A stretch of DNA of 38,656 bases from assembly GCA_017307915.1 (NCBI GenBank), contig JAFKGG010000385.1, positions 1 to 38,656 on the forward strand, written 5' to 3'. A program made the translations under genes and the position numbers. Origin of the DNA: Burkholderiales bacterium. GTDB lineage: Bacteria > Pseudomonadota > Gammaproteobacteria > Burkholderiales > Burkholderiaceae_E. Shown here one piece after another: positions 5,274 to 36,675 of the stretch. The stretch's first letter is position 1. Every line of letters starts with the position of its first letter. Under the pieces are notes generated by a model. It saw nothing but the letters and a program-made list of their open reading frames with translations. It ran no database searches and was not told the origin of the DNA.

Positions 5274-6821
5274 CTACATCCGGGCCAGTTGCGCCTCATC
5301 CAGCCAACAGGCGTGCACGCCGAACGGCACGCGCGCCGGCAGCTTCAGCCGCGCCAGCTCGGTCATCGAGGTCGCGTCGAGCACCAATAGTTCGGCACGA
5401 TCATCGGCCATCAGCAGATCGAGCAGATAACCATCGTCTTCGCGCACGGCCCCGGCACGAGGCACGAACAGCGCTTCGCCGCCGTGGAATTCGCCGTAGC
5501 TGAAATAGGCCAACTCCCGCTCGTCGATCAGGTCGTACTTGAGCACGCCACGGCCCATGTAGCCATCGGCCTGCTCATCGATCAGCCAGCCGTAGCGGCT
5601 GCGCCGGCCGACATGGCGCAGATTCAGACTGGGCCGCTCGTAGCCGTGCTCCAGCAAGCGCTTGTACTGTACCTCGCCGCTGCCCAGGTCGATCACCCAC
5701 TTGCCCAGCTTGGCCGGCGGTTCCTCGGGCGTATGAATCGGCACATTGGCCGGATACTCGTCGAACGCAGGCGCGTACAGCACGATGCGCTCGCGGCCGT
5801 GCTCGTCGGTTTCTTCCCAGGCATTGATCACGTGCCAGATCATGCCCGGCTGCGCCGTTTCGAACCAACGAATGCGCTCGCCGAGTTTGGCATCGCGCGG
5901 CACGATGCCCCAGCGCAGCTTGTAGGAAGGATCGAAGCGCCAGAAGCTCTGTCCGGTGTCGTGCAGATTCTGCTCCGAGAAACGTAGCGACACATCGGGA
6001 ATCACCAGATATCGCTCGGTGAGGAAATAATCATGAATGGTGCCCGGCAGGCTCTGGCCGGAGCCGATCTCGTCGATCTTCAGGCAGTTGACGAGCCGCC
6101 CTTCGTGCACGTGCGCCATCCAGATCGCGCGCCCGCGGTTGTCGATCGCCACGTTGTAGAAATCGCCGTTTTCCGGATCGATGCGCGGATGCGCCGAGAA
6201 CGGCACGCGCAGCGCGCCGCCCCAGTCTTCGAGCCGGCCGCCGCCGTCGAGCACCAGCCGGCCGTCTTCGCGGCGTGCATCGAGCACGAACGGCAACCCA
6301 CTGCCTTGCAGGCAATACAGCTTGCCATGGTGATACTGCACGCTGGTCGACGCCGGGTTGGCTTCCAGCGCCGACCAGTTCGGAATCAGCCCGGCGGCCT
6401 GCTTGCGCGCGACGAGCTTGATTCGCTCCAGCCCCATCGGGCCGCTGGCGCACATGTCGCCATAGCTGGGAAACACCTCGCGGCCGGCGCTCTGCTCGAA
6501 CTCGAAACGCGGCGTGCGAATGTACGTGTTCGAATAGGTAGCGCTACCCTCGCCGATCTGCACCTGGTGCAGCATGCCGGCGCCGTTGAAACAGTGCGCG
6601 CGCGTCGTGACGCGGTCGAACTGCACGTTGGTGCCGTTGCGCAGATAGACGCCACGCAGGTCGGCAGGCAGCCGGCCGACCACCTGCACCGGCACATGCT
6701 GGTGCTCGGTGCGCACCGGCTGAAAGCCCGGATGGTTATAGACGCTGGCCCGGTTGTAACGCTCGGCGTCGATCGCCCGGTCGATGCGCTCGTCTTCAGC
6801 CCCGAAGATCGTATCTTGCAT
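5274..6821 (-). CDS. Carotenoid/stilbene cleavage oxygenase family protein 1
   Basis: A 515-residue non-haem Fe(II) oxygenase of the carotenoid oxygenase (RPE65/lignostilbene/isoeugenol) superfamily. Such enzymes split a conjugated C=C bond with O2 into two carbonyl products using a seven-bladed propeller and four histidines. The ligands read as H211 (FSAHPRID), H263 (GTIHDYF), H330 (MIWHVINAWEE) and H503 (PFGVHACW), with the acidic EDDGYL segment near 461. No signal peptide is present, so it is cytoplasmic. It is the last gene of a leftward operon, 12 bases after a Bug receptor gene, with a Rieske oxygenase and an aldolase upstream. Its inter-ligand spacing (52, 67, 173) differs from that of the two other family members in the window (48, 64, 187), so it is the divergent member. 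Substrate unknown; lignin-derived stilbenes, phenylpropenes and apocarotenoids are possible. Confidence 0.88.
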   Translation of the reverse strand: MQDTIFGAEDERIDRAIDAERYNRASVYNHPGFQPVRTEHQHVPVQVVGRLPADLRGVYLRNGTNVQFDRVTTRAHCFNGAGMLHQVQIGEGSATYSNTYIRTPRFEFEQSAGREVFPSYGDMCASGPMGLERIKLVARKQAAGLIPNWSALEANPASTSVQYHHGKLYCLQGSGLPFVLDARREDGRLVLDGGGRLEDWGGALRVPFSAHPRIDPENGDFYNVAIDNRGRAIWMAHVHEGRLVNCLKIDEIGSGQSLPGTIHDYFLTERYLVIPDVSLRFSEQNLHDTGQSFWRFDPSYKLRWGIVPRDAKLGERIRWFETAQPGMIWHVINAWEETDEHGRERIVLYAPAFDEYPANVPIHTPEEPPAKLGKWVIDLGSGEVQYKRLLEHGYERPSLNLRHVGRRSRYGWLIDEQADGYMGRGVLKYDLIDERELAYFSYGEFHGGEALFVPRAGAVREDDGYLLDLLMADDRAELLVLDATSMTELARLKLPARVPFGVHACWLDEAQLARM

Positions 6822-6833
6822 GGCGCCCCCGGC

Positions 6834-7869: not shown

Positions 7870-9201
7870 TCAGCGATCGAGCACGCGCCCGATCGGATCG
7901 CCGAAGCGCAGACGCATCGCCTCGTCGATGTTGGTCGGGTCCGGCACCACCACGCCGCCGGCACGCACCCGATAGTCACCGGGGCTGTCGACGCCCAATG
8001 GCACGACGCCCTGCGCCAATCCCCTGGCAGACTCCAGCATCAGCTTGCGGAACTGCATCACGCCGATGTCGGTCGGGCCGAGTAGCTCGCGCGTACGGTC
8101 GGCGATGCGACCCTGGCTGTCCTGGATCGCCGCGTCCTGTTCCGACACGCCGACGATGCCGGTGTAGTTCTCGCTTTTCTGCACCTCGCGATCGATCAGA
8201 TAGTCGTTCGATCGATTGCGCAGCGGCATCCAGTTTTCGCCCATCTCCGGATAGACCGCGCCGCCGCTGCGATAGCCCTTGCGTTCTTCTTCGGTCAGCG
8301 GTCGCTGCGGGTTCCACGAATAGATGTAGATCCAGCAGGATTCGTCGTCGATCGGCACCCAGGTCTGGCCGTGATAAGTCTGGCCGTCGGTGGCGCTCGG
8401 CGTGTAGCCGTGACAGGGCATCAGGTACTGCGCGATGCGCCAATACAACTGCCCCGGTTCGGCCTGGCGCGATGCGCCCAGCACCAGCCCGGCGCCGTGC
8501 TTGCGCACCTCGTAGCGCGGCCGCGCATCGTCGCGCATCCAGCGTACGTGGTTCTGATTCATCGTCTGCTGCGAATAACCGCGCGTGGCACGCGCGGCCT
8601 TCTCGGCAAGCTGCCCTTCCGAAGACACCACCGGCTGATGCAGGAACGAGAAGTGCGCCGTATCGACGCCGCCTTCGGCCGCCTGCGCCCAATTGCACTC
8701 CTGGTATTTCTTCGAGACGTGCCGGTGCGACGGCGGCACGAGCGCGAATTCCATCTGCGGCAGCTCGGGCAGCGGCCGCTGCGGCCCCAGGTAGGCCCAC
8801 ACGTAGTCGCCCCATTCGCGCGTCGGATACGCCTTGATCTGCGCCTTGTCGCTGACCTTGGACACCAGCTCGGGCGGCATCGTCGGCATGTCGACACAGC
8901 GGCCTTGCGCGTCGAACTTCCAGCCGTGATAGGCGCAGCGAATGCCGCCTTCTTCATTGCGGCCGAAAAACAGATGCGCGCCGCGATGCGAACAGCGCGG
9001 ATCGATCAATCCCACCGCGCCCGTGCTGTCGCGAAACGCGAGCAGCTCTTCGCCGAGCAGCTTCAGGCGCACCGGCGCGCCGTCGCGCTGCACCTGTTCC
9101 GACAGCAGCACCGGCAGCCAGTAGCTGCGAAACAGATCGCCCATCGGCGTGCCGGGGCCGGTACGGGTCAACATGCGGTTGTCTTCGTCACTGAGCATCA
9201 T
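7870..9201 (-). CDS. Rieske aromatic ring-hydroxylating oxygenase, phthalate 4,5-dioxygenase-like
   Basis: A 443-residue terminal oxygenase of the phthalate dioxygenase/vanillate demethylase class. The Rieske [2Fe-2S] ligands are C70-x-H72 (DPRCSHRG) and C89-x2-H92 (RCAYHGW). The mononuclear iron site contains D180, H183 and H188 in EGGVDTAHFSFLH. Family members use electrons from a separate flavin/ferredoxin reductase to hydroxylate, dihydroxylate or demethylate aromatic acids. No such reductase gene is in the window. It starts 8 bases after the aldolase gene; GAGGAAG lies directly before two adjacent ATGs (9201 and 9198), and the second has the better spacing. Carotenoid oxygenase 1 lies downstream in the operon, so both probably act on one substrate or its fragments. 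The specific substrate is unknown. Confidence 0.87.
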   Translation of the reverse strand: MMLSDEDNRMLTRTGPGTPMGDLFRSYWLPVLLSEQVQRDGAPVRLKLLGEELLAFRDSTGAVGLIDPRCSHRGAHLFFGRNEEGGIRCAYHGWKFDAQGRCVDMPTMPPELVSKVSDKAQIKAYPTREWGDYVWAYLGPQRPLPELPQMEFALVPPSHRHVSKKYQECNWAQAAEGGVDTAHFSFLHQPVVSSEGQLAEKAARATRGYSQQTMNQNHVRWMRDDARPRYEVRKHGAGLVLGASRQAEPGQLYWRIAQYLMPCHGYTPSATDGQTYHGQTWVPIDDESCWIYIYSWNPQRPLTEEERKGYRSGGAVYPEMGENWMPLRNRSNDYLIDREVQKSENYTGIVGVSEQDAAIQDSQGRIADRTRELLGPTDIGVMQFRKLMLESARGLAQGVVPLGVDSPGDYRVRAGGVVVPDPTNIDEAMRLRFGDPIGRVLDR

Positions 9202-9209: not shown

Positions 9210-9986
9210 CTATTGCACCGGCGGTCGCACCCAGCGCGCCGCCAGGGCATCGGCGGTTTTCACCAGCAGGCCCAGATCCGAGCCCAGGCAGACCATCGTC
9301 GCGCCGGCATCGAGATAGCTTTGCGCCTGCGCCTCGCCGGCCAGGATGCCGGCGGCACGGCCGGCGGCGCGGATGCGGCGCACGCCGTCGAGCGCCGCCT
9401 GTTCCACTTCGGGATGCAGCGGCTGCGCCAGGTGCCCCATATCGGTGGCCAGATCGACCGGGCCGATGAACAAGCCGTCGACGCCGTCGACGGCGCAGAT
9501 CGATTCCAGGTTCGCCAGCCCGGCCGCGCTTTCGATCTGCAGCAGCAGGCAGATGCGCTGCGCCGCCGCCTCGTAATAGCCGGCATAGCGGCCGAAGCCA
9601 GTGGCGCGCACGCTGCCGCCCACGCCGCGCATGCCCAGCGGCGGATAACGCACCGCGCGCACCACGGCCGCCGCTTCGTCGGCGTCACGGATGTTCGGCA
9701 CCATCACCGTGTCGATGCCCATGTCGAGCACCGGCTTGAACAGCACCGGATCGGCCGATGGCATGCGCACCAGGCATTGCGTCTCAGTACCGGCCAGCGC
9801 CAGCACCTGCGAATACAGCGTCGGCAGACTGGTCGGCGTGTGCTCGGCGTCGAACATCAGGAAGTCGAAGCCGGCGGGCACCAGCGCATCGGCCGTCTGC
9901 GCGGTCAGCGACATGCTGAACAGGCCGAATTGCGGATGCCCACGCAGCAGCTTTTGCTTGAACGGATTGATCGTTTGCAGGCTCAT
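9210..9986 (-). CDS. HpcH/HpaI family class II aldolase
   Basis: A 258-residue metal-dependent aldolase of the HpcH/HpaI family, which cleaves 4-hydroxy-2-oxoacids to pyruvate and an aldehyde, typically at the end of a meta-cleavage pathway. Visible active-site residues are H49 (FDAEH), R74 (LVRMP), E152 (LLQIES) and D178 (FIGPVDLA), corresponding to base, pyruvate anchor and the two metal ligands of HpaI. ATG at 9986 is preceded by AGGTGAG at a 7-base spacing; a GTG at 9998 is possible but less likely. The preceding Bug gene stops 13 bases upstream. It could serve its own operon with the Rieske enzyme, or supply the aldolase step missing from the extradiol operon at 22470-27588; the second idea is inference. 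Confidence 0.87.
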   Translation of the reverse strand: MSLQTINPFKQKLLRGHPQFGLFSMSLTAQTADALVPAGFDFLMFDAEHTPTSLPTLYSQVLALAGTETQCLVRMPSADPVLFKPVLDMGIDTVMVPNIRDADEAAAVVRAVRYPPLGMRGVGGSVRATGFGRYAGYYEAAAQRICLLLQIESAAGLANLESICAVDGVDGLFIGPVDLATDMGHLAQPLHPEVEQAALDGVRRIRAAGRAAGILAGEAQAQSYLDAGATMVCLGSDLGLLVKTADALAARWVRPPVQ

Positions 9987-9999
9987 GGCCGCACTCACC

Positions 10000-13347: not shown

Positions 13348-14412
13348 TCAGTTGATCGTGATGCCCTTGCGCCGGATGATCTCGCCGGCCGCCGCGGCCT
13401 GTTTGGTCACGTAGGCCTTGAACTCTTCCGGGCTCTTCAGCACCGGATACATGCCCAGCGTTTCCAGCTTGTCGCGCACCTCGGGCAAGTTCAGGATCAA
13501 GGCCACTTCACGGTTGACGCGCCGCACGATCTCGGCCGGCGTGCCGGCCGGCATCAGAATGCCCTGCTCGGCGGCCACCTCGAAATCCTTGATGCCGACT
13601 TCGCCGAAAGTCGGCACTTCGGGCATGCTCGATAGCCGCGACGGCCAGGTCACGGCTAGGAAGCGCAGTCGGTCATCCTTCATGTACTGGCGCGCGGTGG
13701 CCACGCCCATCAACATCGTCTGCACCTGGCCGCTGGCCAGATCGACGACCGCCGCCGAATCGCCTTTGTACGGAATGTGCTGCATCTGCAGGCCGAGCAT
13801 GTCGTCGAGCGTGGCCATCGCGATGTGATGCGGCGAGCCGACGCCGGGCGTGGCGAAGCTGATGCGGCTGCCGTTCTGCTTGGCCCACTGCTGCCATTGC
13901 GCGAAATTGCGCACCGGCACCGACTGGTGCACGGCCAGCACGAGCGGAAAGCGCCCCATCATCGCCACGTACTCGAAACTGCTCGGCTGATAGGGCAGCT
14001 TGTCGAACAAGTGCCAGTTGTTGAACAGCGTTCCGTTGTCGGCAGTGGCCAGCGTATAGCCGTCAGCCGGCGCCGAGGCCAGCGCCTGCGCGGCCACCGT
14101 GCCGCCGCCGCCCGGACGGTTGTCCACCAGCACCCGCTGGCCCAGCGCCTTGGCCAGCCCATCGCCGATCAGCCGCGCGACGATGTCGCCGGCACCCCCC
14201 GGGTTGTAGGGCACCAGCCAGCGGATCGGCTTGCTCGGATATGGCGGCGACTGGGCCCATGCCGGCAGCGCCGCGCCGCCGGCGAGGCTGCCGGCCAGAC
14301 CGGCGGCCCCGGCCAGCCAGCGTCGGCGGCCGGCGGCAAATCCATCGGCAGGCGCAGCCCCGGGCCCGTCTGTGCGGTCGACGACGGGCGTATGAATCGA
14401 ACGGATCATCAT
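13348..14412 (-). CDS. Bug/TctC family periplasmic solute receptor 3
   Basis: A 354-residue Bug receptor with a long leader: a polar stretch of about 30 residues, then RRRWLAGAAGLAGSLAGGAA and a likely cleavage after AWA, a twin-arginine-like arrangement. The mature protein opens with YPSKPIRWLVPYNPGGAGD, followed by LVDNRPGGGGT, HIPYKGDSA and MPEVPTFGEVG, all family hallmarks. ATG at 14412 is adjacent to a second ATG at 14409. It is the last gene of the operon FAD hydroxylase, DUF2783, alpha/beta hydrolase, receptor, about 65 bases after the hydrolase, and probably captures that pathway's substrate. No TctAB genes are nearby. Confidence 0.87.
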   Translation of the reverse strand: MMIRSIHTPVVDRTDGPGAAPADGFAAGRRRWLAGAAGLAGSLAGGAALPAWAQSPPYPSKPIRWLVPYNPGGAGDIVARLIGDGLAKALGQRVLVDNRPGGGGTVAAQALASAPADGYTLATADNGTLFNNWHLFDKLPYQPSSFEYVAMMGRFPLVLAVHQSVPVRNFAQWQQWAKQNGSRISFATPGVGSPHHIAMATLDDMLGLQMQHIPYKGDSAAVVDLASGQVQTMLMGVATARQYMKDDRLRFLAVTWPSRLSSMPEVPTFGEVGIKDFEVAAEQGILMPAGTPAEIVRRVNREVALILNLPEVRDKLETLGMYPVLKSPEEFKAYVTKQAAAAGEIIRRKGITIN

Positions 14413-17617: not shown

Positions 17618-17664
17618 GGCGATTATCTGGCGGTGGGTAGGTCGCTGATACGTCCGGCATTCGG

Positions 17665-17682: not shown

Positions 17683-17793
17683 TGCCGCGCGGCGGGCCGG
17701 CACATCAGGCCGGCGCTTCAGGCCGGCTGTTGCATCGACCAACCGGCGGCCGAGCCCGCGGCCGCACTAGCCGGACGGCCTAGGCTCGGCGGA

Positions 17794-18306: not shown

Positions 18307-18365
18307 GAACAGCGCTCCTCCATGAAATTGCGCGCATTCTGGCCCATCGATTCAATAGTGTCAAT

Positions 18366-24343: not shown

Positions 24344-24374
24344 CGTTGTCCCCTCTCCAAGGTTGTGCGGCGAT

Positions 24375-24399
24375 TATTCCACATAAGGGAATATATTCC
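24375..24399. promoter_or_regulatory. Overlapping palindromes upstream of receptor 4
   Basis: TATTCC (24375-24380) and GGAATA (24388-24393) form an inverted repeat around 7 bases, and GGAATATATTCC (24388-24399) is a perfect 12-base palindrome. The two share a half-site. The TTCC/GGAA arms resemble IclR-type operators (inference), and an IclR gene lies at 27744. The 24344-24459 gap otherwise holds a plain AT-rich promoter-like stretch. Confidence 0.55.
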
Positions 24400-24459
24400 T
24401 TATTATGCAATTAAAACCGCGCGCCGCGAGCTGCCGGCGCACGGTGCCGATCGCCGTCG

Positions 24460-25044: not shown

Positions 25045-26086
25045 GGTCTGCCTTGGCCGCGCTGGCCGATTGGTGTTGGTCGGTGCCCTGGCTTGCGCTT
25101 CGCGGCGCGGCAGCGTATTCATCGGCCGGCGTCGCGCCGACCCACTGCAAGGGCGCGCGAATGCCTTGCTCGAGCGCGTATTCGCGCTGCTGGTCGGCCG
25201 CCGAGCGCGCTTCGGCAGCGCCGCCGATCCGATCATGCCCCCACAGGCTCGGGCCGAACAGTTCTTCGATCTGCCACGAAGCCTCATCGACGACTCGCCC
25301 GCCCCAGCCGTATTCGATCGGAAAGCCGGACGGCGTCTTCACGTAGAAGGACGTCATCAAGTCGTTCGAATGGCGGCCGAGCGTCGAGAAGATGCCGCTG
25401 GCGTATTCGGTCTGCGCCACGTCATAGGCGCGGCCCACGTCGTCAAACTCATTGACTTCCACCATCACGTGCGCGATGCCGCTGCCGGCGCGTTCGCCCA
25501 GCGCCAGTGAATGATGGCGGCCGTTGATGCGCATGAACACGCGCCGGTTCGGTTCCAGCACATAGTCGGAAACGCGAAAACCCAGCAGCTTGCAATAGAA
25601 ATCGCGCGCCCGTTCGAGCTGCGCCACGATCAGCACGATGTGCCCCATGCCGAGCTCGCCGGTGCGAAAGCCCCCCAGCGGCCGATCGGGCACGAAGGGT
25701 TCAGCGGCGTCTTCCAGGCCGTGATAGAGCTCGACGCGATTGCCGTCGGGATCACGCAACCAGATCATCTGCCGCACGCGGCGTAGTGCCAGTTCATCAC
25801 GGGTGGCCTCGGTGAACGGTACACCGGCATCGGCGAGCTGGCGACGCGCCGCCTCGAGCGCTGCGGCATCGGCCAGCTCCAGACCGAAGTAGTGCGCACC
25901 GTCGGCCTCGGCTTGCGTCAGGATGAAACGATGACACTTCTCATCCAGACGCAGCGTGACGGCCTCGCGGCCATCGGGCAGCGCAAAGCGCCGGCTCTGC
26001 GTGCCGAGCAGCCGCCGCGAAAAGCGCTGCCAGGCGGCCAGGTCGGAAACGTTCAGGCCCATATAGCCCAGGCTATGAAGCTGCAT
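25034..26086 (-). CDS. Type I extradiol (catechol meta-cleavage) dioxygenase
   Basis: A 350-residue two-domain extradiol dioxygenase of the BphC/HsaC type, which opens catechols next to the hydroxyl pair with Fe(II) and O2. The metal triad H149 (LGMGHIVL), H206 (GIAHVMVE) and E258 (FPIEYGWG) is complete. Second-sphere residues H191/H192, H239 and Y248 occupy the positions expected from BphC. The PIEYGW motif closes the core near 260. Beyond about residue 300 there is an extra Ala/Gln-rich tail of some 50 residues not seen in BphC (about 298 residues). It follows the HpaB-like gene by 8 bases with GAGGTGCGCC before the ATG and overlaps the CMD gene, so hydroxylation, ring opening and, with the MhpC-like gene, hydrolysis can be read in order. 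Confidence 0.9.
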   Translation of the reverse strand: MQLHSLGYMGLNVSDLAAWQRFSRRLLGTQSRRFALPDGREAVTLRLDEKCHRFILTQAEADGAHYFGLELADAAALEAARRQLADAGVPFTEATRDELALRRVRQMIWLRDPDGNRVELYHGLEDAAEPFVPDRPLGGFRTGELGMGHIVLIVAQLERARDFYCKLLGFRVSDYVLEPNRRVFMRINGRHHSLALGERAGSGIAHVMVEVNEFDDVGRAYDVAQTEYASGIFSTLGRHSNDLMTSFYVKTPSGFPIEYGWGGRVVDEASWQIEELFGPSLWGHDRIGGAAEARSAADQQREYALEQGIRAPLQWVGATPADEYAAAPRSASQGTDQHQSASAAKADHVE

Positions 26087-26094
26087 GGCGCACC

Positions 26095-27588
26095 TCAGGC
26101 GGACAGCGCCAGCGGGTCGGCCTGGCGTTCGAGAATGTCGTGGGCGGCGACTTCCATCGCGTGCGCGACCAGCCGCTGGCACTGCGATTTGTCGTAGTTC
26201 AGGAACAGGTTGGCAAGATTGCGCACCGGGTCGCCCAGGTGATAGCGCTCGTATTGCACCTGGCGCGAACCGAAGGCATCGCCGCAGACATCCCAGGCCA
26301 TCTTGTACAGCCCGACACGGCGCGCCGCATCGGTGCCGGCTGCGCCCTGGTAATACTTGGCGATGTCGGCGCCGATCGGACTGTCGAAATCTTCGAAGCT
26401 CGGCATCATCTGCATGCCGCCGGCGCCGACGATCTGCATGATCTCGACGATGCGCGAGTAGTAGCGCGCCGTGAGCATGCGCGCGCTGTTGACGGCCAGC
26501 ATCGACGGGCGCAGCAGCCCCTGGAAACCGACGTCGGCCTCGGCCACCGCGCGGCACAGGCAGCTCTTCATCAGCTCGATGTAGTGCAGGCATTCACCGA
26601 CCATCTGCTGCACGTGCAGGAACTTGTCGGCGCCGTTGGCCTTCACCACTTCCATCAGCAGCCCGACGACGAACTCGAGCTTCACCAGGCCGCGCACCGC
26701 CGCCTGATGGCTGGAGTGATTGCGCCCGGTATTGCCGCCGTGGAAACGGTTGATGACTTCGACGTTGTTGTAGGCGAAAACGCGCTCCCACGGCACCAGC
26801 ACGTCGTTGAAGATGATCAGCGTGTCGCTGTCCTCGAAGTTGGTGCCCAGCGGATGATTGCCCACCAGCCGGTCGCCGTCGTCATAGGGTTCGCGGCAGA
26901 TCTGCCGGATGCCCGGCGCATGGATCGGCATCGCGAAGATGAAGACGTAGTTGGCGTCTTCGGCCTTCTGGTGCGCCATGCTGTAGACCAGCACTTCGTC
27001 GACGATAGGCCCCATGGTGGCCAGCATGCGGGCACCGCGCACGATCAGTCCGTCGGCGGTTTCGCGCACCACGCCCAGATGCAGGAACTCATCGGCCTGC
27101 TGGCCCGACAGCTTGGAGCGGTCGATCTGCGGCGTGATCAGCGCATGCGTGAGGAACAGGTCTTCGTCACGCACCTTCTTCGCATAGGCGCGCAGATTGG
27201 CCGCGAAGCGATCGCCGAGCGGCTGCAGCAGCTCAGCCGATTCGGCGAAACCGTGGATGACGCTGCCCAGGAAATCAGGCGAGCGCCCCATCATGCCCAG
27301 CGTCTGTTCGGCGGTCAGCCGGTAGGCGGCGGCACGCTTGAGCAGATCTTCGCGCGTGCGGCACGGCAGATACGAGGTGGAGACGCGCTGCCCGTTCTCG
27401 GCGGTGAACGTGAGCACGTCGGCGTAGCGCGGGTCGTGCTGCAAATCGAACAGCGCGGCGGTATGGGCCAGCGGCCGGGCGAACGCCGGATGCGTCGTTA
27501 CGTCGTCGATGCGCTTGCCGCGCAGCCAGACGTCGCGCGGGTGCTTGCGCAAGCCCGCCAGGTACTCGCTGCCGGTTCGGATTCCCAT
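26095..27588 (-). CDS. HpaB-like two-component flavin monooxygenase, oxygenase subunit
   Basis: A 497-residue protein of the 4-hydroxyphenylacetate 3-monooxygenase (HpaB/PvcC) family, an acyl-CoA-dehydrogenase-fold enzyme that uses FADH2 from a separate reductase to hydroxylate phenols ortho to the existing hydroxyl. Family landmarks include RTGSEYLAGL at the start, YLPCRTREDLLKRAAAYR, NPLGTNFEDSDT-like segment HPLGTNFEDSDTLIIFNDVLVPWERVF, and FHGGNTGRNHSSHQA. Length is normal. AGGAG precedes the ATG at 27588. It is the first gene of the operon with the extradiol dioxygenase. No HpaC-type flavin reductase is in the window, so FADH2 must come from elsewhere. The phenolic substrate is unknown; acting on a phenol to give a catechol for the next enzyme is the natural reading. 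Confidence 0.88.
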   Translation of the reverse strand: MGIRTGSEYLAGLRKHPRDVWLRGKRIDDVTTHPAFARPLAHTAALFDLQHDPRYADVLTFTAENGQRVSTSYLPCRTREDLLKRAAAYRLTAEQTLGMMGRSPDFLGSVIHGFAESAELLQPLGDRFAANLRAYAKKVRDEDLFLTHALITPQIDRSKLSGQQADEFLHLGVVRETADGLIVRGARMLATMGPIVDEVLVYSMAHQKAEDANYVFIFAMPIHAPGIRQICREPYDDGDRLVGNHPLGTNFEDSDTLIIFNDVLVPWERVFAYNNVEVINRFHGGNTGRNHSSHQAAVRGLVKLEFVVGLLMEVVKANGADKFLHVQQMVGECLHYIELMKSCLCRAVAEADVGFQGLLRPSMLAVNSARMLTARYYSRIVEIMQIVGAGGMQMMPSFEDFDSPIGADIAKYYQGAAGTDAARRVGLYKMAWDVCGDAFGSRQVQYERYHLGDPVRNLANLFLNYDKSQCQRLVAHAMEVAAHDILERQADPLALSA

Positions 27589-28622: not shown

Positions 28623-30149
28623 TCACCCCTGCCCGAACGGCCTGACGTCACTGCCCGCCGCCCAGCACGAATGCGTGCCGCTGCTGATCTTGTGCGGCAG
28701 CCTGATCGTGCATACCGGCCCATCGGCCAGCCGCTTGGCGTCGATCACCACCACCTCTGAACACTGCGCCTTCTCGTCGGTGATGAACGACACCACGTAG
28801 CCGTCGTCCTCGTCGCGCGCGTTCAGCCGCGGCGCCATCGGCGACTCGCTGGCATAGCGCCGCTCGCCCAGCGTCAGCCACTGCTTGTCGCCGGTGACGT
28901 GATCGAACTTCATCAGCCCGCCGAACAGGAATGCGTCATCGACCGGCAGCGGATTGTATGAATACCGGTACGGCCGGCCCGCATGGCGGCCGTTGATCAT
29001 GCCGAACTCGCACACCGTGTCGTCGAGCGCGCGCTCGCGCACCTTGCCGGTACGCAGGTTCAGCCGCCATTCGTGTATGTGCGGACCGTAGCGCGCCGCG
29101 CCCAGCTTCCTGCCCTTGTTGTCGAAGCCCTCGCCGCGATCCTTGTTCGACGGCAGCGGCGTGGCCTGGAAATACCCGTGGCGCACGATCTCCAGTCCTT
29201 CGGGCGTTTCTTCTTCCCAGGCGTTGATCCAGTGCAGCACGTAGGTCGGCGAAGCTTCGAACCAGATGATGTCGTCGGCGCTGCCGCGGCGCGGGATCAC
29301 CGCCATGCGCGAGGCTTGCTCCCGAAAGAAGCGCACCGCATGCTTGCCCTCGCGCAGCGCCTGAGGATCCCAGTACAGCGGAAAGTCGTCGAGAATCGCG
29401 TAGTTCTCGGTGAATGACATGTCGTGCGGCAGCCGCGGCCCGGGCAGCGGAATCGGCGTGTAATGCACCAGCACGTTATTGGCGTCGACCACGCCATAGT
29501 GCATGTACGGCGCGCGCTTCGAATAGTTGAAGAACAGCAGCTCGCCGTTATGCTCATCGACCTTGCAATGCGCCGACATGCCGTGATCGAAGCGGCCGGC
29601 GCCGTCGGTCACCGGCAGGCGTCCGCCAAAGGTTTCGTGGCCCGCAGGTTCCAGCGTGAACGCGTCGAAGCGATACGGCACGCCGCACTGATAGAAGGTG
29701 GCCAGCGCCGAGCCGGCGTGCACCACCACGTCGGTCGACGCCGCATCGCGCAGCCCGCCGCGCGCACCCCAGCCGGCAAAGCGCGACACGCTGGGCGGAT
29801 CGATCAGCCCGCCGAACACCGACTGCCCCGCGGCCAGTTCCATCTCGAACGCCGTGGTGCGCAGGAAGCGATTGCGGTATTCAGCCCGGCCACGATTGAA
29901 GCGCAGCGCGTGAACCATGCCGGCACCGTCGAACACGTGATAGGTGCCCAGCGGCTTGAACAGCGGGTTCTGCGTATTGCGCAGATACACGCCATCGAGA
30001 TCGGCCGGGATCGTGCCCTGCACCTCGGCGTCGCCGTTTTCATAGAACGCGGTCAGCTCTTCATGCACCGGCGTGAAGGGCCCGCTCATGTAAGGATGAT
30101 CAGTGGCGTCTAGATTGCCCTGGAAGCGTTCGTAGGTTTCGACTTTCAT
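28623..30149 (-). CDS. Carotenoid/stilbene cleavage oxygenase family protein 2
   Basis: A 508-residue Fe(II) oxygenase of the carotenoid/lignostilbene/isoeugenol oxygenase superfamily. Ligand histidines are H194 (GMSAHCKVD), H242 (RLPHDMSF), H306 (YVLHWINAWEE) and H493 (SGTHSCW), and EDDGYVVSF carries the second-shell acidic residue. Spacing between ligands (48, 64, 187) is identical to that in carotenoid oxygenase 3 in this window, and both share PLPGPRLPHDM and GSAD-x-I-x-WFEA-x-PTY, so they are close paralogues. The ATG at 30149 is four bases after the thiolase stop, so the two genes form a coupled pair. Products would be aldehydes or ketones from C=C cleavage. Length and context favour a phenylpropanoid or stilbenoid substrate, but apocarotenoids cannot be excluded. 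Confidence 0.88.
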   Translation of the reverse strand: MKVETYERFQGNLDATDHPYMSGPFTPVHEELTAFYENGDAEVQGTIPADLDGVYLRNTQNPLFKPLGTYHVFDGAGMVHALRFNRGRAEYRNRFLRTTAFEMELAAGQSVFGGLIDPPSVSRFAGWGARGGLRDAASTDVVVHAGSALATFYQCGVPYRFDAFTLEPAGHETFGGRLPVTDGAGRFDHGMSAHCKVDEHNGELLFFNYSKRAPYMHYGVVDANNVLVHYTPIPLPGPRLPHDMSFTENYAILDDFPLYWDPQALREGKHAVRFFREQASRMAVIPRRGSADDIIWFEASPTYVLHWINAWEEETPEGLEIVRHGYFQATPLPSNKDRGEGFDNKGRKLGAARYGPHIHEWRLNLRTGKVRERALDDTVCEFGMINGRHAGRPYRYSYNPLPVDDAFLFGGLMKFDHVTGDKQWLTLGERRYASESPMAPRLNARDEDDGYVVSFITDEKAQCSEVVVIDAKRLADGPVCTIRLPHKISSGTHSCWAAGSDVRPFGQG

Positions 30150-30153
30150 GGGT

Positions 30154-31383
30154 TCAACACTCCACGACGAAACTGACCACGGTGGCGCACGACCCGCCGA
30201 TGTTCAAGGTGGCCACGCGCCGTGCGCCCGCCACCTGGTATTCACCGGCCTGGCCGCTGACCTGCCGTGCGGCATCGAGCAGCAGCCGCGTACCGGTGGC
30301 GCCGACCGGATGGCCGCAACCGATCAGCCCGCCCGACGGATTGATCGGCAGCTTGCCGCCCATCTCGATCATGCCGCTGTCCACCGCCTGCCAGCTCTGC
30401 CCCGGCGGCGTCAGGCCGAAATGGTCGATCGCCGTGTATTCGGTGGTGGTGAAGCAGTCATGCGTTTCGATGGCGTCGAGCTGCGCCGGGCCGTCGATGC
30501 CGGCGCGCCGATAGGCATCGGTGATGGCGGCGCGCAGATGCGGAAACACATACGGTTCGCCACGACTGCGTTCGAGTTTGTCGATCACGCGCAGCCCGGC
30601 ATTGCGATGCCCCCAGCCGCTGATGCGCGGCAGGCGCTCGAGCGCGCTGCCGTTGCGCCGTGCATGCTCGGCCGCATAACGCGCCGACGCCAGCAGCAAC
30701 GTGCAGGCGCCGTCGGTGATCTGACCGCAATCCTGCCGGCGCGTGCCGGGCTCGATGATCGGATTGGCTTCGTCGTCGTCGGTGAAGCTGCGTTCGTCGA
30801 ACTTCCAGTTGCGCGTCTGCGCCAGCGTGTTGCGCTTGGCGTTGCCGTAGTTGATCTCGGCGATGCGGTTCAGATAGCGGCGATCGAGCCCGTAACGGCG
30901 CTCGTATTCCTGCCCGACCAGGCCGAACGCCGCCGGCCACAGGAAGCGGCAATCGATGCCCTCGCGGCCCTGCCAGCCGGCCGCGTTCTGGTTGCTCGAC
31001 GACACGTCGCCCGGCAAATTCTTCAGCTCTTCGGCGCCCACCACCAGGATGCAGTCGTAGCGGCCGGCTTCGATCTCGGCCATCGCCGTCAGCACCGCCA
31101 ACGACGCCGACGCGCAGGCGCCCTCGTGGCGCATCGCCGGCACGCCCCACAACTCGGGTACCACCGAAGACACCATCGCGCCCAGGTGCGCCTGGCCGCG
31201 CTGCAGCTCGGCGAAAGCGTTGCCGACGTGGATCGACTGCACGTCGCCGACCGGCACGCCGCTGGCGGCCAGCGCCCCGTTGACCGACTCGCGGATCATG
31301 TCGGAAATGTCCTGCCCCTGGCGCGACCAGGCGCGCGCGAAATCCGACTGATGGCCGCCGAGGATGTAGACGGGTGAGGTCAT
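30154..31383 (-). CDS. Thiolase (SCP-x/acetyl-CoA acetyltransferase-like)
   Basis: A 409-residue thiolase-superfamily enzyme. The nucleophilic cysteine is C90 in HEGACASASLAVL, and later motifs are IETHDCFTTTEY and NPSGGLIGCGHPVGATG, which carry the second catalytic His and Cys. Absence of the NGG-type bacterial FadA motif and the presence of THDCF point to the SCP-x-like subgroup, which acts on bulky or branched acyl-CoAs in sterol, terpenoid and aromatic side-chain degradation. ATG at 31383 follows AAGGAGAGC, a very good ribosome site; a longer frame upstream is spurious. It leads a two-gene operon with carotenoid oxygenase 2 and diverges from an IclR gene. Degradative or condensing direction is not determined. 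Confidence 0.85.
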   Translation of the reverse strand: MTSPVYILGGHQSDFARAWSRQGQDISDMIRESVNGALAASGVPVGDVQSIHVGNAFAELQRGQAHLGAMVSSVVPELWGVPAMRHEGACASASLAVLTAMAEIEAGRYDCILVVGAEELKNLPGDVSSSNQNAAGWQGREGIDCRFLWPAAFGLVGQEYERRYGLDRRYLNRIAEINYGNAKRNTLAQTRNWKFDERSFTDDDEANPIIEPGTRRQDCGQITDGACTLLLASARYAAEHARRNGSALERLPRISGWGHRNAGLRVIDKLERSRGEPYVFPHLRAAITDAYRRAGIDGPAQLDAIETHDCFTTTEYTAIDHFGLTPPGQSWQAVDSGMIEMGGKLPINPSGGLIGCGHPVGATGTRLLLDAARQVSGQAGEYQVAGARRVATLNIGGSCATVVSFVVEC

Positions 31384-31475
31384 GCAAGCTCTCCTTGAGT
31401 TTCTGATATGCTGAATTTCATTCGGTGTACGCGGGGCGCCCGCGCCTGCCGAGACACAAGACGAACGGAGACACC

Positions 31476-32324
31476 ATGCTGGCCCCGAAATCGCCGCAGG
31501 CCGATGCGGCACCCGGCGCGGCGACCCAGCCCGACGGCCGGCCGCCGTCGCGCGTGCTGCCGGTGCACAGCGAGCATCTCGACGATCGCCAGTTCGCCAC
31601 CACGCTGGCACGCGGCCTGGAGCTGCTGCGCTGCTTCACGCATCAAAAGCCGGTGCTCGGCAACAAAGACCTGGCCGAACGCTGCGGGCTGCCGCCTTCC
31701 ACCGTCACACGCCTGGCCTACACGCTGGTCAGCCTGGGCTACCTGGCCGAGGCCGAGTCCTACGGCAAATACCGGCTTGGCCCGGCGGTGCTGTCGCTGG
31801 GCTATCCGCTGCTGGCCAGCTTCGGCGTGCGGCGCATCGCCAAGCCGTTGATGATCGAGCTGGCCGCCGAGATCGGCGGCGCCGTGTCGCTGGGCATCCG
31901 CGATCGGCTCGACATCGTCTACATCGAGGTGGCGCGCGCCGACAACCGCTCGGTGCATACCGTCGACACCGGCACCGTGCACACGATCGCCGGCACCGCG
32001 ATCGGCCGCGCGTACCTGGCCGCCTGCGACACGCAGACGCAGCAAAGCATCATCAACCAGATTCGCGTCAAGGCGCCCGACCAGTGGCAACGCTGGGGCA
32101 AGGCGGTGCAGCGCAACCTGAAGAATTATCCGCAGCACGGCGTGTGCACCTCGCTTGGCGAGGTTTATCCCGACGTGCAGGCGGTGGCCACGCCGCTGGG
32201 CCGCCTGCGCGAAGGGCAGTTGGCGGCGATCAACTGCGCGTTCGTCGGCATCCCGATCGACGAGCAGTGGCTGATCAAGTCGGTGGCGCCCAAGCTGCTG
32301 GCGCTGGCGCGCCGGCTGGCCTAG
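31476..32324 (+). CDS. IclR-family transcriptional regulator 3
   Basis: A 282-residue IclR-type regulator with a long polar N-terminus, a winged helix (TTLARGLELLRCFTHQKPVL, then GLPPSTVTRLAYTLVSLGYL near 78-97) and an effector domain (GGAVSLGIRDRLDIVYIEVA and GTAIGRAYLAA). GGAGACACC precedes the ATG at 31476; an in-frame ATG at 31425 is less supported. It diverges from the thiolase/carotenoid oxygenase 2 operon across 92 bases that hold a TGAATTTCA palindrome at 31412-31420. It resembles PcaR/PobR-type aromatic regulators in general layout. The 150-base convergent gap after it has no recognisable gene. Confidence 0.89.
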   Translation: MLAPKSPQADAAPGAATQPDGRPPSRVLPVHSEHLDDRQFATTLARGLELLRCFTHQKPVLGNKDLAERCGLPPSTVTRLAYTLVSLGYLAEAESYGKYRLGPAVLSLGYPLLASFGVRRIAKPLMIELAAEIGGAVSLGIRDRLDIVYIEVARADNRSVHTVDTGTVHTIAGTAIGRAYLAACDTQTQQSIINQIRVKAPDQWQRWGKAVQRNLKNYPQHGVCTSLGEVYPDVQAVATPLGRLREGQLAAINCAFVGIPIDEQWLIKSVAPKLLALARRLA

Positions 32325-32475
32325 GCGAACGAAGGCTCGGGCAACGCCGCCGGCTGCCGCTGCCGCTGCCCCAGCGCGCGCGGCCGCCGCAGCGGACGCA
32401 GCGGCCGAATGCCGCTTTCGGCCATCCGCTTTGCCGGCACCGCGCCGCTGATCCATCGCCCCCACCCGACTGCGC

Positions 32476-33477
32476 TCAGTTCGTCTGCGGTTTCAAGTCG
32501 GTCAGCATCAGCTTGGCCCACTTGCCCCACACCCTCGATTCGTCGGCGATGTACTTGGCCGTTTCGCCGGGCGTCGACGGCATGGCGACGAAATCCCATT
32601 CGGCGAACTTCTCGGTCACCGACTTGCTGCGCAGCGCCTTCACCATCAGCTCGTGCAGGCGATTGACGATCGCATCGGGCGTGCCGGCCGGCACCATCAG
32701 CGTCGACCAGATGTAGATCTCCAGATCGGGATAGCCCAGCTCCTTGAAGGTCGGCACGTCGGGCATCTGCGCCGAGCGCTCGGCGCCGGTGTTGGCCAGC
32801 ACGTGCACCTTGCCGGTGGCCACCTGCGGCTTCACCGCCAACAGCGGCAGGAATGCGGCCTGCACATGGCCGCCGAGCAGGTTCTGCACGGCCGGCGGCG
32901 TGCCATTGTGCGGCACGTGCGTCATGTCGATGCCGGCGCGTTCATTGAGCAGCAAGCCCGACAGGTGCGAACTGTTGCCCGCGGTGAACGAGGCAAAGCT
33001 GACCTTGCCCGGGTTGGCTTTCACCCACGATACGAACTCGGGCAGCGTCTTGGCCTTCACCGCCGACGTGTTCACGGCCAGCACCAGCCGCGCACCAAGG
33101 AAGTTGCTGACCGGCCGGAAATCGACGAGCGGCTTGTAGGGCAGGTTCGGATACAGGTGCGGATTGGCCGCCATCATGCTGACCGAACCGAGCAGCACCG
33201 TGTAACCGTCGGGCTTGGCGGTCTGCACCGTCTGGGCCGCGACGATGCCGCCGCCACCCGGCTTGGCTTCGATGATCAGGTTCTGCCCGCTTTCCTTGCG
33301 AAACTCTTCGCCCACCAGCCGCAGCGCCTGGTCGAGCGTATTGCCGGCGGCAAACGGCACGACCACGCGCACCGGCCGCGAAGGATAGTCATCGGCCAGC
33401 GCGGGGGCGGCCAGCGTACCGTACGCAGCGGCGGCCACGGCGCCCAGCAGCGTGCGCCGCAAGATCGAAATGTCCAT
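32476..33477 (-). CDS. Bug/TctC family periplasmic solute receptor 5
   Basis: A 333-residue Bug receptor with a signal MDISILRRTLLGAVAAAAYG and likely cleavage after ALA. The opening YPSRPVRVVVPFAAGNTLD departs from the usual PGGxxD by having AAGNTLD, so the ligand-pocket loop is atypical. Later motifs are IIEAKPGGGGIVAAQ, HVPHNGTPPA (usually PYKG) and MPDVPTFKELGYPD. These two substitutions fall in the parts of the fold that contact ligand, suggesting an unusual ligand. AAGGAGGGAC lies before the ATG at 33477. It is the last gene of the operon carotenoid oxygenase 3, acyl-CoA synthetase, receptor, 37 bases after the synthetase. Confidence 0.87.
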   Translation of the reverse strand: MDISILRRTLLGAVAAAAYGTLAAPALADDYPSRPVRVVVPFAAGNTLDQALRLVGEEFRKESGQNLIIEAKPGGGGIVAAQTVQTAKPDGYTVLLGSVSMMAANPHLYPNLPYKPLVDFRPVSNFLGARLVLAVNTSAVKAKTLPEFVSWVKANPGKVSFASFTAGNSSHLSGLLLNERAGIDMTHVPHNGTPPAVQNLLGGHVQAAFLPLLAVKPQVATGKVHVLANTGAERSAQMPDVPTFKELGYPDLEIYIWSTLMVPAGTPDAIVNRLHELMVKALRSKSVTEKFAEWDFVAMPSTPGETAKYIADESRVWGKWAKLMLTDLKPQTN

Positions 33478-33514
33478 CGTAGTCCCTCCTTTGGGTTCAG
33501 TCATTGCCAGTGAG

Positions 33515-35224
33515 TCAGGCCGCCTGGGCACGCCTGGCGGCTTCTTCGCGCAGTTCGCGCTTGAGTACCTTGCCGACCGGATTGCGCGGCAGCGCATCGA
33601 TCTGGATCAGGTGTTCGGGCAGCTTGAACGCCGCGACGCGGCATTGCTCGCGCAGATACGCAACCAGTTCGGCCAGCGTCAAGGCATGGCCTGCTCGCAG
33701 CACGGCGAACACGCAGACGCGTTCGCCCATCGTCTCATCGGGCCAGCCGACCATCGCGGCCTCGGCCACCGCCGGATGGCCGATGACGAGGTTCTCGATC
33801 TCTTCGGACGAGATGTTCATGCCGCCGCGGATCACCAGGTCTTTCGAGCGGCCGACGAAGCGATAGAACTGATTGCGATCGCCGGCGATCTCGAACAGGT
33901 CGCCGGTGCGGTAGTAGCCCTGGTCGTCGAACGCGCGCGCTGTCAACTCCGGTGCACGGTAGTAGCCGCTGAAGATGGTGGCGCCGGCAAAGCGCAGCTC
34001 GCCGGGCCGACCGGATTCGCTGATTTCTTCGCCGGTGTCGGGATCGACCAGCCGCGTGCGCACCTTGCCGGCGTTCACCGCCGACCAGTTGAAACCGTCG
34101 ACACCGATGCGCGGAAAGAACGCCGCGCGCTGCGCCGGGTCGGGCAGCTCGCCGGGCGTGCTCGACAGCGCCGCGCCTTCATTGGAGCCGAAATAATTGA
34201 TGATCTGCACGCCATGGCGCTCGGCGAAACCACGCACCAGCCATTCCGACAAGGGCGCCGAACCCGAGCCGATGCGCGACAGCCGCTTGAAGTCGATGCC
34301 GGCCAGCTTATCCGGTTGCTGCAGCAATTGATTGAGCAGCGCCGGCGCGGCGATCGTGTAGTGGACCGCCTCGTCGCGCAGCTGGCCCAGGAACACGTCG
34401 AGATCGAACGGATGGTGCTGCACCACCGTGCCGCGCAGCATCAACCAGCTTGCCAGGCCGGTCGAGATACCGGCCATGTTGACGAACGGAAACGGATTGA
34501 GCACGCGTGCGCCTTCGCTCAGCTCAGCGGCATCCTTCACCGACAGGCCGACGATCAGCCATTCGTTGTGGCTGCGCGGCACGCCCTTGGGATTGGCCTC
34601 GGTGCCCGAAGTCCAGCAGATCGAGAATACGTCGTCGGCACTCACGCCCGCATCGAGCATGGCGTCGGCCGGCACCGGCTCGGCCTGCGCCAGCAGCGCA
34701 GACAGCGGCAGCACGCCGGCGGGCAGCTCATCGCCATAGGCCCATACGGCGCGCAGCGATGCGTGCTGCGCCGCCAGGGCCGCCCACATCGCCGCATGCG
34801 CGCTGCGCCCGATGCGCTGCTGCGTGATCGCCAGCACCGCTTCGGTCTTGTCGATGACGTAGTCGAGCTCATGCTCGCGATACTGCACCGGCACCGGGCA
34901 CACGATGATGCCCAGGCAGGCGCAAGCCAGGTACACCTGATACTGCTCGATGCCATTGGCCATCTGCACGACTACCACGTCGTCCTTGCGCAGCCCCTGC
35001 GCGCGCAGCACCGCCACCATGCGGCCGACTTCGGCGACCAGCTCGGCATAGGTCAGTCGCCGCGGCGCGACGCCGACCAGCGCCTGCTTGTTCGGCGGAT
35101 CGACCACCGCTTCGCGCTGCGGCGCGCGCGCGGCATTCTCCAGAAACAGCTCGCCCATCGTGCGGCTGCCCCACCAGCCTTTGGCGCGGAACTCCTCGAT
35201 ACGCTCGCGCGGCACCAGGATCAC
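33515..35224 (-). CDS. AMP-dependent acyl/aryl-CoA synthetase
   Basis: A 569-residue adenylating enzyme of the ANL superfamily that activates a carboxylate with ATP and CoA. The AMP-binding core FSICWTSGTEANPKGVPRSH lies near 200-219, the YFGSNEGA motif near 353, YRTGDLFEI near 440, and the catalytic lysine in NPVGKVLKREL near the C-terminus (NPVGKV replacing the usual TxxGK). It starts with GTG at 35224, overlapping the stop of the upstream carotenoid oxygenase gene as GTGA, with GGAGGTGA five bases before the start, so it is translationally coupled. It could convert the acid derived from an aldehyde product of the oxygenase into a CoA ester, or activate the imported acid; neither is proven. 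Feruloyl-, benzoyl- and medium-chain ligases share this architecture. Confidence 0.88.
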   Translation of the reverse strand: MILVPRERIEEFRAKGWWGSRTMGELFLENAARAPQREAVVDPPNKQALVGVAPRRLTYAELVAEVGRMVAVLRAQGLRKDDVVVVQMANGIEQYQVYLACACLGIIVCPVPVQYREHELDYVIDKTEAVLAITQQRIGRSAHAAMWAALAAQHASLRAVWAYGDELPAGVLPLSALLAQAEPVPADAMLDAGVSADDVFSICWTSGTEANPKGVPRSHNEWLIVGLSVKDAAELSEGARVLNPFPFVNMAGISTGLASWLMLRGTVVQHHPFDLDVFLGQLRDEAVHYTIAAPALLNQLLQQPDKLAGIDFKRLSRIGSGSAPLSEWLVRGFAERHGVQIINYFGSNEGAALSSTPGELPDPAQRAAFFPRIGVDGFNWSAVNAGKVRTRLVDPDTGEEISESGRPGELRFAGATIFSGYYRAPELTARAFDDQGYYRTGDLFEIAGDRNQFYRFVGRSKDLVIRGGMNISSEEIENLVIGHPAVAEAAMVGWPDETMGERVCVFAVLRAGHALTLAELVAYLREQCRVAAFKLPEHLIQIDALPRNPVGKVLKRELREEAARRAQAA

Positions 35225-36675
35225 CGCTCACCTCCGCCCCAGCGCGCCATCGTGGCAGCGCTGACGTAGGTCGCATGAAAACCATTGGGCACGCGCCTCG
35301 GCATGATGATGCGCGCCACCGGCCCTTCGGCCAAGCGGGCCCCCTTGCAATCGAAGATCTGGATTTCACTGCGCGCATCGACCGGATTCCAGACGAAGCC
35401 GACCAGGTAGCCATCGTCTTCGGCCGTCGAATGATCGCGCGGCGCAAAGCCAGGCTCGTTGTAGAAGTAGCGCGGCCCGGCGCTGTAGGCCACGTAGCCG
35501 CCGGTCTCCAGGTCGTACTTGACCAGCCCGGGAAAGCGCGGCTCTTCCTTGCCGCCCTGCGGAAACAGCACGTTGTACGTGAAGCGGTTGCGCCGTCCCT
35601 GGTAGGCGCTGTTGATCACCGGAAACTCGGTGTTCAGCACGTCATCGATCGGGCCTTCGGTGGTCTGGCCGGTCTTCAGGTTGAAGCGCCAGCGATACAG
35701 CAGGAAGTCGCGCTGCCGGTTGTGGATCGTTCTTTCCAGCCGCTTCGCGTCGATCGAGCCGTCTTCCTTCTCGTACACGCGATAGGGCGTGCCGACCATC
35801 ACGATCTCGTCACCCTCTTCCCAGGCGTTGACCACGTGCAGCATGTAGGTCGGCCTGGCCTCGAACCAGCGGATCTGATCGGCGCTACCGTAGCGCGGCA
35901 CGATGCCGAAACGTGTGGGCAGCTCGGGGTTGAAGCGCACCTTGTAGCGGCCCAGTTTGAACGCTTCCTCATCGAGCAGCAGCGGGAAGTCGTGCAGGAT
36001 CGAATAGTGCTCGGTGATCGCCATGTCGTGCGGCAGGCGCGGCCCCGGCAGCGGCACGTCGATCTGATGGCGCACGCGGCGGTCGGGGCCGACCACGCCA
36101 TAGCGCATGTAGGGCGGCTTGGTGTCGTAGTCGAAATAGATCAGCTCGCCGGTATGCTCGTCAGGCCGCGAGTGTGCCGACACCCGGTCGATCGCGCCGC
36201 CGAAGTCGGCCGGACCGAGGGTGTCCAGCGTGTCGGGGTCCAGCGCATACGGCATGCCCGAGCGATACCACATCGCGATGAGGCGCCCGGCGTGGTATTT
36301 GACGTCGGTATTGGCCGTGTTCTTCAAGGGCTCGTCAGGACGGTCGCGGCGCGGCGGCTCCTTCAGGCCCTGCCACAGCGAATGCCCGGCGGCCATCTCT
36401 TCGTTGAATGCGCGCGTGCGCACCCAGCGATTGCGATAGCTGACCTTGCCGTGGTCGAAGCGCACCGCGTGCAACATGCCGTCGCCGTCATAGACGTGAT
36501 AGCGCCAGCTCGGTTCGAAGTAGGCGTTCGGACCGTTGCGCACGTACAGGCCGTTCAGATCGGTGGGCACTTCGCCGATCACCTGCAGCTCGTCGAAACA
36601 GCTTTCGTCGGTCACCGGACCATTGTTGCCGTCCAGGGCCGGAATGTCATGAACCGGGAGTTCGTCGCGTCGCAT
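35221..36675 (-). CDS. Carotenoid/stilbene cleavage oxygenase family protein 3
   Basis: A 484-residue Fe(II) oxygenase of the carotenoid/lignostilbene/isoeugenol superfamily. The length is close to that of bacterial lignostilbene and isoeugenol oxygenases (about 480). Ligands are H168 (RVSAHSRPDEHTGE), H216 (RLPHDMAITEH), H280 (YMLHVVNAWEEGDE) and H467 (PNGFHATY), with the AEDDG segment near 418-422. Compared with paralogue 2 it has the same inter-ligand spacing and shared PLPGPRLPHDM and RYGSAD-type blocks; its N-terminus is shorter. ATG at 36675 follows AAGGAGACC; a longer frame to 36747 is not used. It is the first gene of the operon with the acyl-CoA synthetase and Bug receptor. Its preferred alkene substrate is unknown. 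Confidence 0.88.
   Translation of the reverse strand: MRRDELPVHDIPALDGNNGPVTDESCFDELQVIGEVPTDLNGLYVRNGPNAYFEPSWRYHVYDGDGMLHAVRFDHGKVSYRNRWVRTRAFNEEMAAGHSLWQGLKEPPRRDRPDEPLKNTANTDVKYHAGRLIAMWYRSGMPYALDPDTLDTLGPADFGGAIDRVSAHSRPDEHTGELIYFDYDTKPPYMRYGVVGPDRRVRHQIDVPLPGPRLPHDMAITEHYSILHDFPLLLDEEAFKLGRYKVRFNPELPTRFGIVPRYGSADQIRWFEARPTYMLHVVNAWEEGDEIVMVGTPYRVYEKEDGSIDAKRLERTIHNRQRDFLLYRWRFNLKTGQTTEGPIDDVLNTEFPVINSAYQGRRNRFTYNVLFPQGGKEEPRFPGLVKYDLETGGYVAYSAGPRYFYNEPGFAPRDHSTAEDDGYLVGFVWNPVDARSEIQIFDCKGARLAEGPVARIIMPRRVPNGFHATYVSAATMARWGGGER

Follow-up and report, generated by a model that had tools for sequence, protein, structure and literature searches.

We examined a 38,656-nucleotide stretch of a Burkholderiales genome (contig JAFKGG010000385.1, here called C188; the whole stretch is henceforth referred to as the window) that carries three genes of the RPE65 or carotenoid cleavage oxygenase (CCO) family, all on the minus strand: CCO1 (5274–6821), CCO2 (28623–30149) and CCO3 (35221–36675). 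Each of them passes the Pfam cut-off for PF03055, with E values of 1.2e-99 for CCO1, 1.8e-117 for CCO2 and 2.9e-123 for a longer form of CCO3 (35221–36747). For the last gene we prefer the ATG at 36675, which is also where the original prediction had placed its limit, since a homologue of about 75% identity starts at the equivalent position and residues 1–37 of the long form are of low confidence in the structure model.

An alignment with LsdA, LSD4, NOV1, CCD1 and VP14 places all four histidine iron ligands in each of the six CCOs that this genome encodes. The ligand spacings are 52/67/173 residues in CCO1 and 48/64/187 in both CCO2 and CCO3, reproducing exactly what had been read from the bare sequence. 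The claim that the second and third genes are closer to each other than to the first also holds, with a BLAST identity of 40% between CCO2 and CCO3 and of 28.5–31.5% between CCO1 and the others. A predicted structure, made for CCO3 only (pLDDT 82), matches CCO structures with a TM score of about 0.8, its top fold match being the stilbene dioxygenase LsdA at 28–30% identity, and the best PDB sequence matches of the clade to which CCO2 and CCO3 belong (see below) are CCD1 entries. None of the three reaches the lignostilbene/stilbene equivalog model NF053778 (cut-off 800 bits; 154.7, 206.2 and 240.8 bits for CCO1, CCO2 and CCO3) or the 8'-apo-carotenoid 13,14-cleaving dioxygenase model NF052295 (cut-off 675 bits; 179.7, 233.2 and 250.9 bits), the latter being the best NCBIfam match, below cut-off, of CCO2 and CCO3.

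CCO2 and CCO3 stand in a compact group of genes whose order on the minus strand is an NMO/FabK-like FMN enzyme (36820–37956; best solved relatives, FMN enoyl-acyl carrier protein reductases), CCO3, an acyl-coenzyme A (CoA) ligase (33515–35224, GTG start), a TctC substrate-binding protein (32476–33597), a thiolase (30154–31383) and CCO2, interrupted by an IclR-family, PcaR-like regulator on the plus strand (31425–32324) that is divergent from the thiolase. The ligase start and the CCO3 stop overlap by 4 bp; the nearest relatives of the ligase span a wide range of acyl- and aryl-CoA ligases. The thiolase, which starts at residue 77 of a long open reading frame (ORF), stops 4 bp before the CCO2 start; it is closest to SCP2-type (PRK06289-like) and related thiolases. 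Homologues of the regulator adjoin CCO3 types in Cupriavidus necator C39 and in genome G009, and homologues of the TctC protein occur in the cassettes of four other loci (L153, L229, L230, L235).

To follow this arrangement in relatives, named genomes were scanned with an alignment of the six CCOs, and the best 80 of more than 80 existing loci were taken, whose best segments show 49–58% identity to CCO2. Among these 80, a thiolase accompanies the CCO at 51 loci, an HxlR-type regulator at 45, an NMO type at 30, a ligase at 22 (some of these matches below 30% identity) and a CCO3 type at 11; many contigs end within the loci, so these counts are lower bounds. Two or three CCO genes longer than 400 residues are present at 10 of the 80. 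In a genome of the same taxonomic order (L153) the arrangement reads IclR / CCO3-ligase-hydrolase-TctC-NMO-CCO2-thiolase, and a Comamonas locus (L045) has PaaN (over cut-off), CCO3, ligase, hydrolase, NMO, thiolase, HxlR type and CCO2. A Pararhodobacter cluster (L034) combines CCO2, CCO3, a PaaN-like dehydrogenase (below cut-off), NMO, two thiolases and an HxlR type, and one 14 kb Comamonadaceae locus (L041) holds CCO2, CCO3 and CCO6 types together. The gene order is CCO3-ligase-CCO2-thiolase both on pBB1, a C. necator N-1 plasmid classed as conjugative, and on a plasmid of strain C39, with CCO3 about 75% identical to ours and no NMO match in either cassette. Related versions occur in C. basilensis, Sphingopyxis granuli RW412, C. 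necator NH9 and Polaromonas P1-6; in the last two, integrases or insertion sequences lie close by. The several tyrosine recombinases and transposases near the cassette on NH9 plasmid pENH92 (L118) suggest that it is mobile.

Since CCO2 and CCO3 types share a locus with the same ligase, NMO, thiolase and regulator in several relatives, we read the two as parts of one catabolic cassette (28623–37956) rather than of separate routes, holding the explanation as a whole, set out below, with about even confidence. The partners that had been named are indeed in place, namely a Rieske enzyme and an HpcH/HpaI aldolase near CCO1, the thiolase adjoining CCO2 and the ligase overlapping CCO3. The accompanying idea of three different operons with different partners is not supported, as those of CCO2 and CCO3 recur as one cassette (L153, pBB1). 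An obligate CCO2-CCO3 pair, or a pseudo-enzyme partner, was considered and rejected: in three fragmented genomes (G046, G009, G037) a CCO3 type is accompanied by ligase, TctC, NMO or thiolase, the examined stretch containing no CCO2. Because CCO3 types also lack CCO2 alongside in these family members, the Arg-type and Gln-type enzymes (see below) may serve separate steps.

The linkage was compared with a control drawn from a sample of the phylum whose selection took no account of the clade, setting all 12 clade loci (13 genes) against 21 loci of CCOs that keep the second-shell glutamate described below; the controls were hand-picked, not random, from 56 Glu-bearing genes, and one of them (L203) ends at 10.4 kb. 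With matches taken at E 1e-30 and ligase matches below 35% identity not counted, a thiolase and an HxlR type were each found at 7/12 clade and 0/21 control loci (Fisher p 1.9e-4 for each), a second thiolase at 6/12 and 0/21 (p 8e-4), an NMO at 6/12 and 1/21 (p 5e-3) and a ligase at 5/12 and 0/21 (p 3e-3; 1/21 without the identity filter, L208 at 30%), all p values being uncorrected for relatedness and multiple tests. Genes related to one that matches the limonene-epoxide-hydrolase Pfam family were found at 10 of the best 80 loci, two of six plasmid loci and 2/12 clade versus 0/21 control loci, and TonB receptors at 23 of the 80, one of the six and 5/12 versus 1/21. On Cupriavidus plasmids such a gene with a limonene-1,2-epoxide-hydrolase match lies near the cassette, and it has relatives in Phenylobacterium loci (L115 at 13521–13931, L116, L063).

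The iron site of these enzymes departs from that of their characterised relatives. According to the available text of PMC8191317, every characterised carotenoid cleavage dioxygenase conserves four histidines and, in the second shell, three acidic residues. The conserved CCO iron site is taken to include the three second-shell carboxylates (PMC8191317, PMC12051055, PMC5133782, as far as their available text goes). At the position of Glu135 (LSD4 numbering), CCO1 to CCO6 align Gly, Gln, Arg, Gln, Gln and Gln, so that all six keep two of the three acids. In CCO2 the Gln is preceded by a one-residue insertion. The alignment is anchored at this site by the correspondence of Met-Ser-Gln in CCO4–6 with Leu/Met-Ser-Glu at the same place in CCD1 and VP14. 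As the three acids are a feature seen in characterised members rather than part of the Pfam definition, CCO1–3 are, by their sequence matches, PF03055 family members despite the missing acid.

The loss extends well beyond this genome. The phylum sample gave 69 CCOs (75 matches from other genomes minus six, namely five fragments and G726; L154, L172, L178 and L189 are included and a duplicate L139 row is left out), 56 of which have Glu, a segment length of 10 and no insertion. The site is Gln in 11 of the remaining 13, Arg in one and Asn in one, and all 13 have a segment length of 11, with the extra residue just before the site. A broader alignment panel mixed this sample with loci picked for likeness to CCO2, a choice of which the count of 69 is independent. 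Among the 101 CCO ORFs longer than 400 residues from the best 80 loci and the six plasmid loci (those of 400 or fewer were dropped), the site is Gln in 87, Arg in 10, Leu in three, Met in one and Glu in none. The other two second-shell glutamates, the four histidines and the occluding threonine are kept in the clade members of this genome and in nearly all the 101 ORFs, the exceptions being one Pro at the last histidine and one Gln at one glutamate.

In a tree of 112 rows, CCO2, CCO3 and CCO4–6 fall in one clade of 45 rows (SH-aLRT 100), which keeps a support of 99 (43 rows) once the trait columns are removed. Both trees were built by a quick method with SH-aLRT support only; the duplicate L139 row was left out, as were 17 near-copies from the trait-free tree, and long branches, that of CCO1 among them, were flagged in the 112-row tree. 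Plant CCD1 and VP14 form a weak sister group (87) and the lignostilbene dioxygenases a separate one (100). Two changes account for the loss of Glu on this tree, one for the clade, where it spans Alpha-, Beta- and Gammaproteobacteria and Actinomycetes in the rows examined, and one for CCO1 alone. CCO1 is placed by the tree in a different, distant lineage; its nearest relatives there are 57–59% identical and keep Glu, and by that comparison its loss is a separate, single event (Gly in CCO1 while the nearest relative found, L174 at 57%, has Glu).

Two rival explanations turn on this residue. Ordinary expansion, in which the clade consists of plain apocarotenoid cleavers and the change at Glu is neutral drift, is a possible but doubtful account: the best NCBIfam model is an apocarotenoid one (233 and 251 bits against a cut-off of 675) and Gln is still able to hydrogen-bond the histidine, but the loss runs throughout the clade rows examined, across three proteobacterial classes and the Actinomycetes, and the operon linkage is much stronger than at Glu-bearing control loci. 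Alternatively, with its second shell weakened, the clade may no longer carry out dioxygenation, and its four-histidine iron site would instead catalyse an isomerisation, a hydration or a lyase reaction, possibly with a CoA ester as substrate; we regard this as unlikely. RPE65 is an isomerohydrolase, so the fold is capable of other chemistry, and an Arg or Leu at the site would be unable to accept a hydrogen bond from the histidine. Moreover, the residue gone from the clade rows examined is one described as conserved in all characterised members (PMC8191317, available text). Arguing the other way, nearly all the 101 ORFs retain the histidines, the other two glutamates and the occluding threonine. 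RPE65 itself retains the three glutamates.

As for the substrate, the available text of PMC8191317 describes Phe59, Tyr101 and Lys134 as contacts of the stilbene phenol ring, with Tyr101 and Lys134 binding the 4-hydroxyl. The corresponding residues are Phe/Tyr/Gln in CCO1, Phe/Leu/Tyr in CCO2 and Tyr/Leu/Tyr in CCO3, none of which is the full stilbene-binding set, and the Tyr/Lys pair is found in none of the 101 ORFs. The original prediction had proposed that the oxygenases cleave alkenyl aromatics (stilbenes, isoeugenol, vinylphenols), feeding aromatic routes that here would include the HpaB-BphC-hydrolase genes at 22470–27588. In keeping with this, the window does encode an HpaB-type hydroxylase, a BphC/HsaC-type extradiol dioxygenase and an HsaD/BphD-type hydrolase, LsdA is the top fold match of CCO3 (at the low identity given above), Phe59 is kept in CCO2 and Tyr101 in CCO1, though there without Lys134. 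Yet the absence of the Tyr/Lys pair from CCO2 and CCO3 is evidence against alkenyl phenols, and the family tree, which had been suggested as a check, puts both genes outside the lignostilbene group at a support of 100. HpaB and BphC, used as queries, had no match at any of the best 80 loci, many of which are ended by contig ends, and a link between the CCOs and these genes was rejected on that count. We consider alkenyl aromatics an improbable substrate class. Abscisic acid was also considered and is not supported: PMC12509608 and the available text of PMC9599779 deal with metabolites or a genome and name no CCO gene.

The most likely reading, in which our confidence is about even, is that CCO2 and CCO3 cleave an alkene and thereby feed a CoA-dependent pathway that degrades a small compound, perhaps one of isoprenoid origin. 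The two enzymes would cut a conjugated C=C bond of such a compound (an apocarotenoid or norisoprenoid); the resulting aldehyde would be oxidised by an aldehyde dehydrogenase, of the PaaN type in some relatives and possibly by the aldehyde dehydrogenase-like gene of the CCO5 cluster here; the ligase would form the CoA ester, the NMO/FabK-like flavoenzyme would reduce the conjugated acyl-CoA, the thiolase would release acetyl- or propionyl-CoA, and the IclR protein would switch the cassette. The limonene-epoxide-hydrolase-type genes and TonB receptors tilt the choice towards isoprenoid or other hydrophobic compounds. Of the earlier idea of one chemistry feeding several routes, the presence of alkene-cleaving-oxygenase homologues among catabolic genes stands, and the separate routes for CCO2 and CCO3 give way to one cassette. 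CCO1, together with the nearby Rieske enzyme and aldolase, would form a separate route, and no sign of its joining that of CCO2 and CCO3 was found.

Several points weigh against this reading. Four of the 12 clade loci have none of the five partners, no ligase match was found in the Pararhodobacter cluster, and the CCO3 types without CCO2 mean that the pair is not obligate. The aldehyde dehydrogenase step is not clearly enriched (2/12 clade versus 2/21 control loci; PaaN alone, 2/12 versus 0/21 and 11 of the best 80), and PaaN was dropped as the local enzyme, there being no match over cut-off in this genome bin. The hints behind a perhaps isoprenoid substrate are weak ones, and a small aromatic acid would fit the porins and TctC proteins just as well. 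We know of no activity for any clade member, and the second-shell loss could mean altered or lost oxygenase activity. A bolder possibility, which we put forward tentatively and think doubtful, is that the rewired second shell (Gln, Arg, Leu or Asn plus the insertion) brings a chemistry or substrate class new to carotenoid oxygenases, within an undescribed CoA-dependent route for isoprenoid-derived compounds that is carried in part on plasmids, Gln- and Arg-type paralogues cutting successive intermediates.

CCO1 lies among a TctC gene, a LigXa_C-type Rieske oxygenase (7870–9201, minus), an HpcH/HpaI aldolase (9210–9998, minus) and another TctC gene. A conserved context for it is not supported: its best relatives found (L174/L220, 57%) have no Rieske or aldolase match within about 9 kb, plasmid records show 27–31.5% identity in the 25 listed of 98, and among 300 genomes of the order none but its own gave a match at E 1e-80. 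Elsewhere in the window, five TctC genes lie within 27 kb (6834–33597; mutual identity 31–38% where BLAST aligned them). Meta-cleavage-type aromatic genes occupy 15899–27588, encoding, besides the HpaB-, BphC/HsaC- and HsaD/BphD-like proteins, an FAD hydroxylase (PRK08132 family, MhpA-related), a VOC protein, two acyl-CoA dehydrogenases and a CMD protein. The genes at 20–4312 (a 3-hydroxyanthranilate-dioxygenase-like cupin below NCBIfam cut-offs, ABC transporter genes and an Amidohydro_2 protein) may be a further ring-cleavage operon.

The six CCO genes of this genome lie on four contigs, with CCO4, CCO5 and CCO6 on C63, C515 and C167; these three are 57–65% identical mutually and 42–45% to CCO2 and CCO3. 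Contig C515 (L032) repeats the scheme, with an aldehyde dehydrogenase-like gene, an SDR gene, TctC, ligase, NMO and CCO5. At least one CCO is present in 50 of 299 phylum-sample genomes (our own included), and among the other 298 only one (G745) has five, five of its six candidates having been scored. Three full-length CCOs with all ligands in 31 kb is more than chance. CCO2 matches at E 1e-80 were found in 3 of 274 genomes of a random class sample (own included), too rare there, which is why the phylum family search was used, and a CCO2-like gene is absent from all 17 congeners at E 1e-30. The bin measures 6.1 Mb and its kin 2.6–4.7 Mb. Contamination was rejected for C167, where the groEL next to CCO6 reaches 96% identity with those of congeners, so that this contig belongs to the bin; the evidence applies to C167 and not to the window contig. 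A lineage-specific gain of these CCO genes is plausible.

Genomes with multiple CCOs are already known, Sphingobium SYK-6 having eight homologues (PMC8191317, available text). A CCD of Sphingopyxis alaskensis is reported to have shown no cleavage of carotenoids (PMC5133782). With the lignostilbene dioxygenases (LsdA, LSD4, NOV1) the CCO2/CCO3 clade shares the fold, the four histidines, two of the three second-shell glutamates and the occluding threonine; unlike them, it lacks Tyr101/Lys134 and Glu135, carries the one-residue insertion and branches separately. It resembles plant CCD1 and VP14 and the bacterial apocarotenoid cleavers in its best PDB sequence match and its weak sister grouping, but CCD1 and VP14 keep the glutamate, and the clade is tied to a CoA-dependent cassette. 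A Glu150Gln variant of ACO (PDB 5kjd) was engineered, whereas the change in the clade is natural and linked to an insertion; if Glu150 is, as we take it to be, the position of LSD4 Glu135, the residue change is the same. Our search of the open-access literature, with most subscription papers outside it, found neither this operon nor a Glu-less clade described, and the clade is widespread and apparently unstudied. The cassette offers a direct entry to a bacterial alkene-breaking route that the literature searched does not describe, and a large natural clade minus one second-shell acid, operon-linked on Cupriavidus plasmids, amounts to a natural experiment on the role of that residue.

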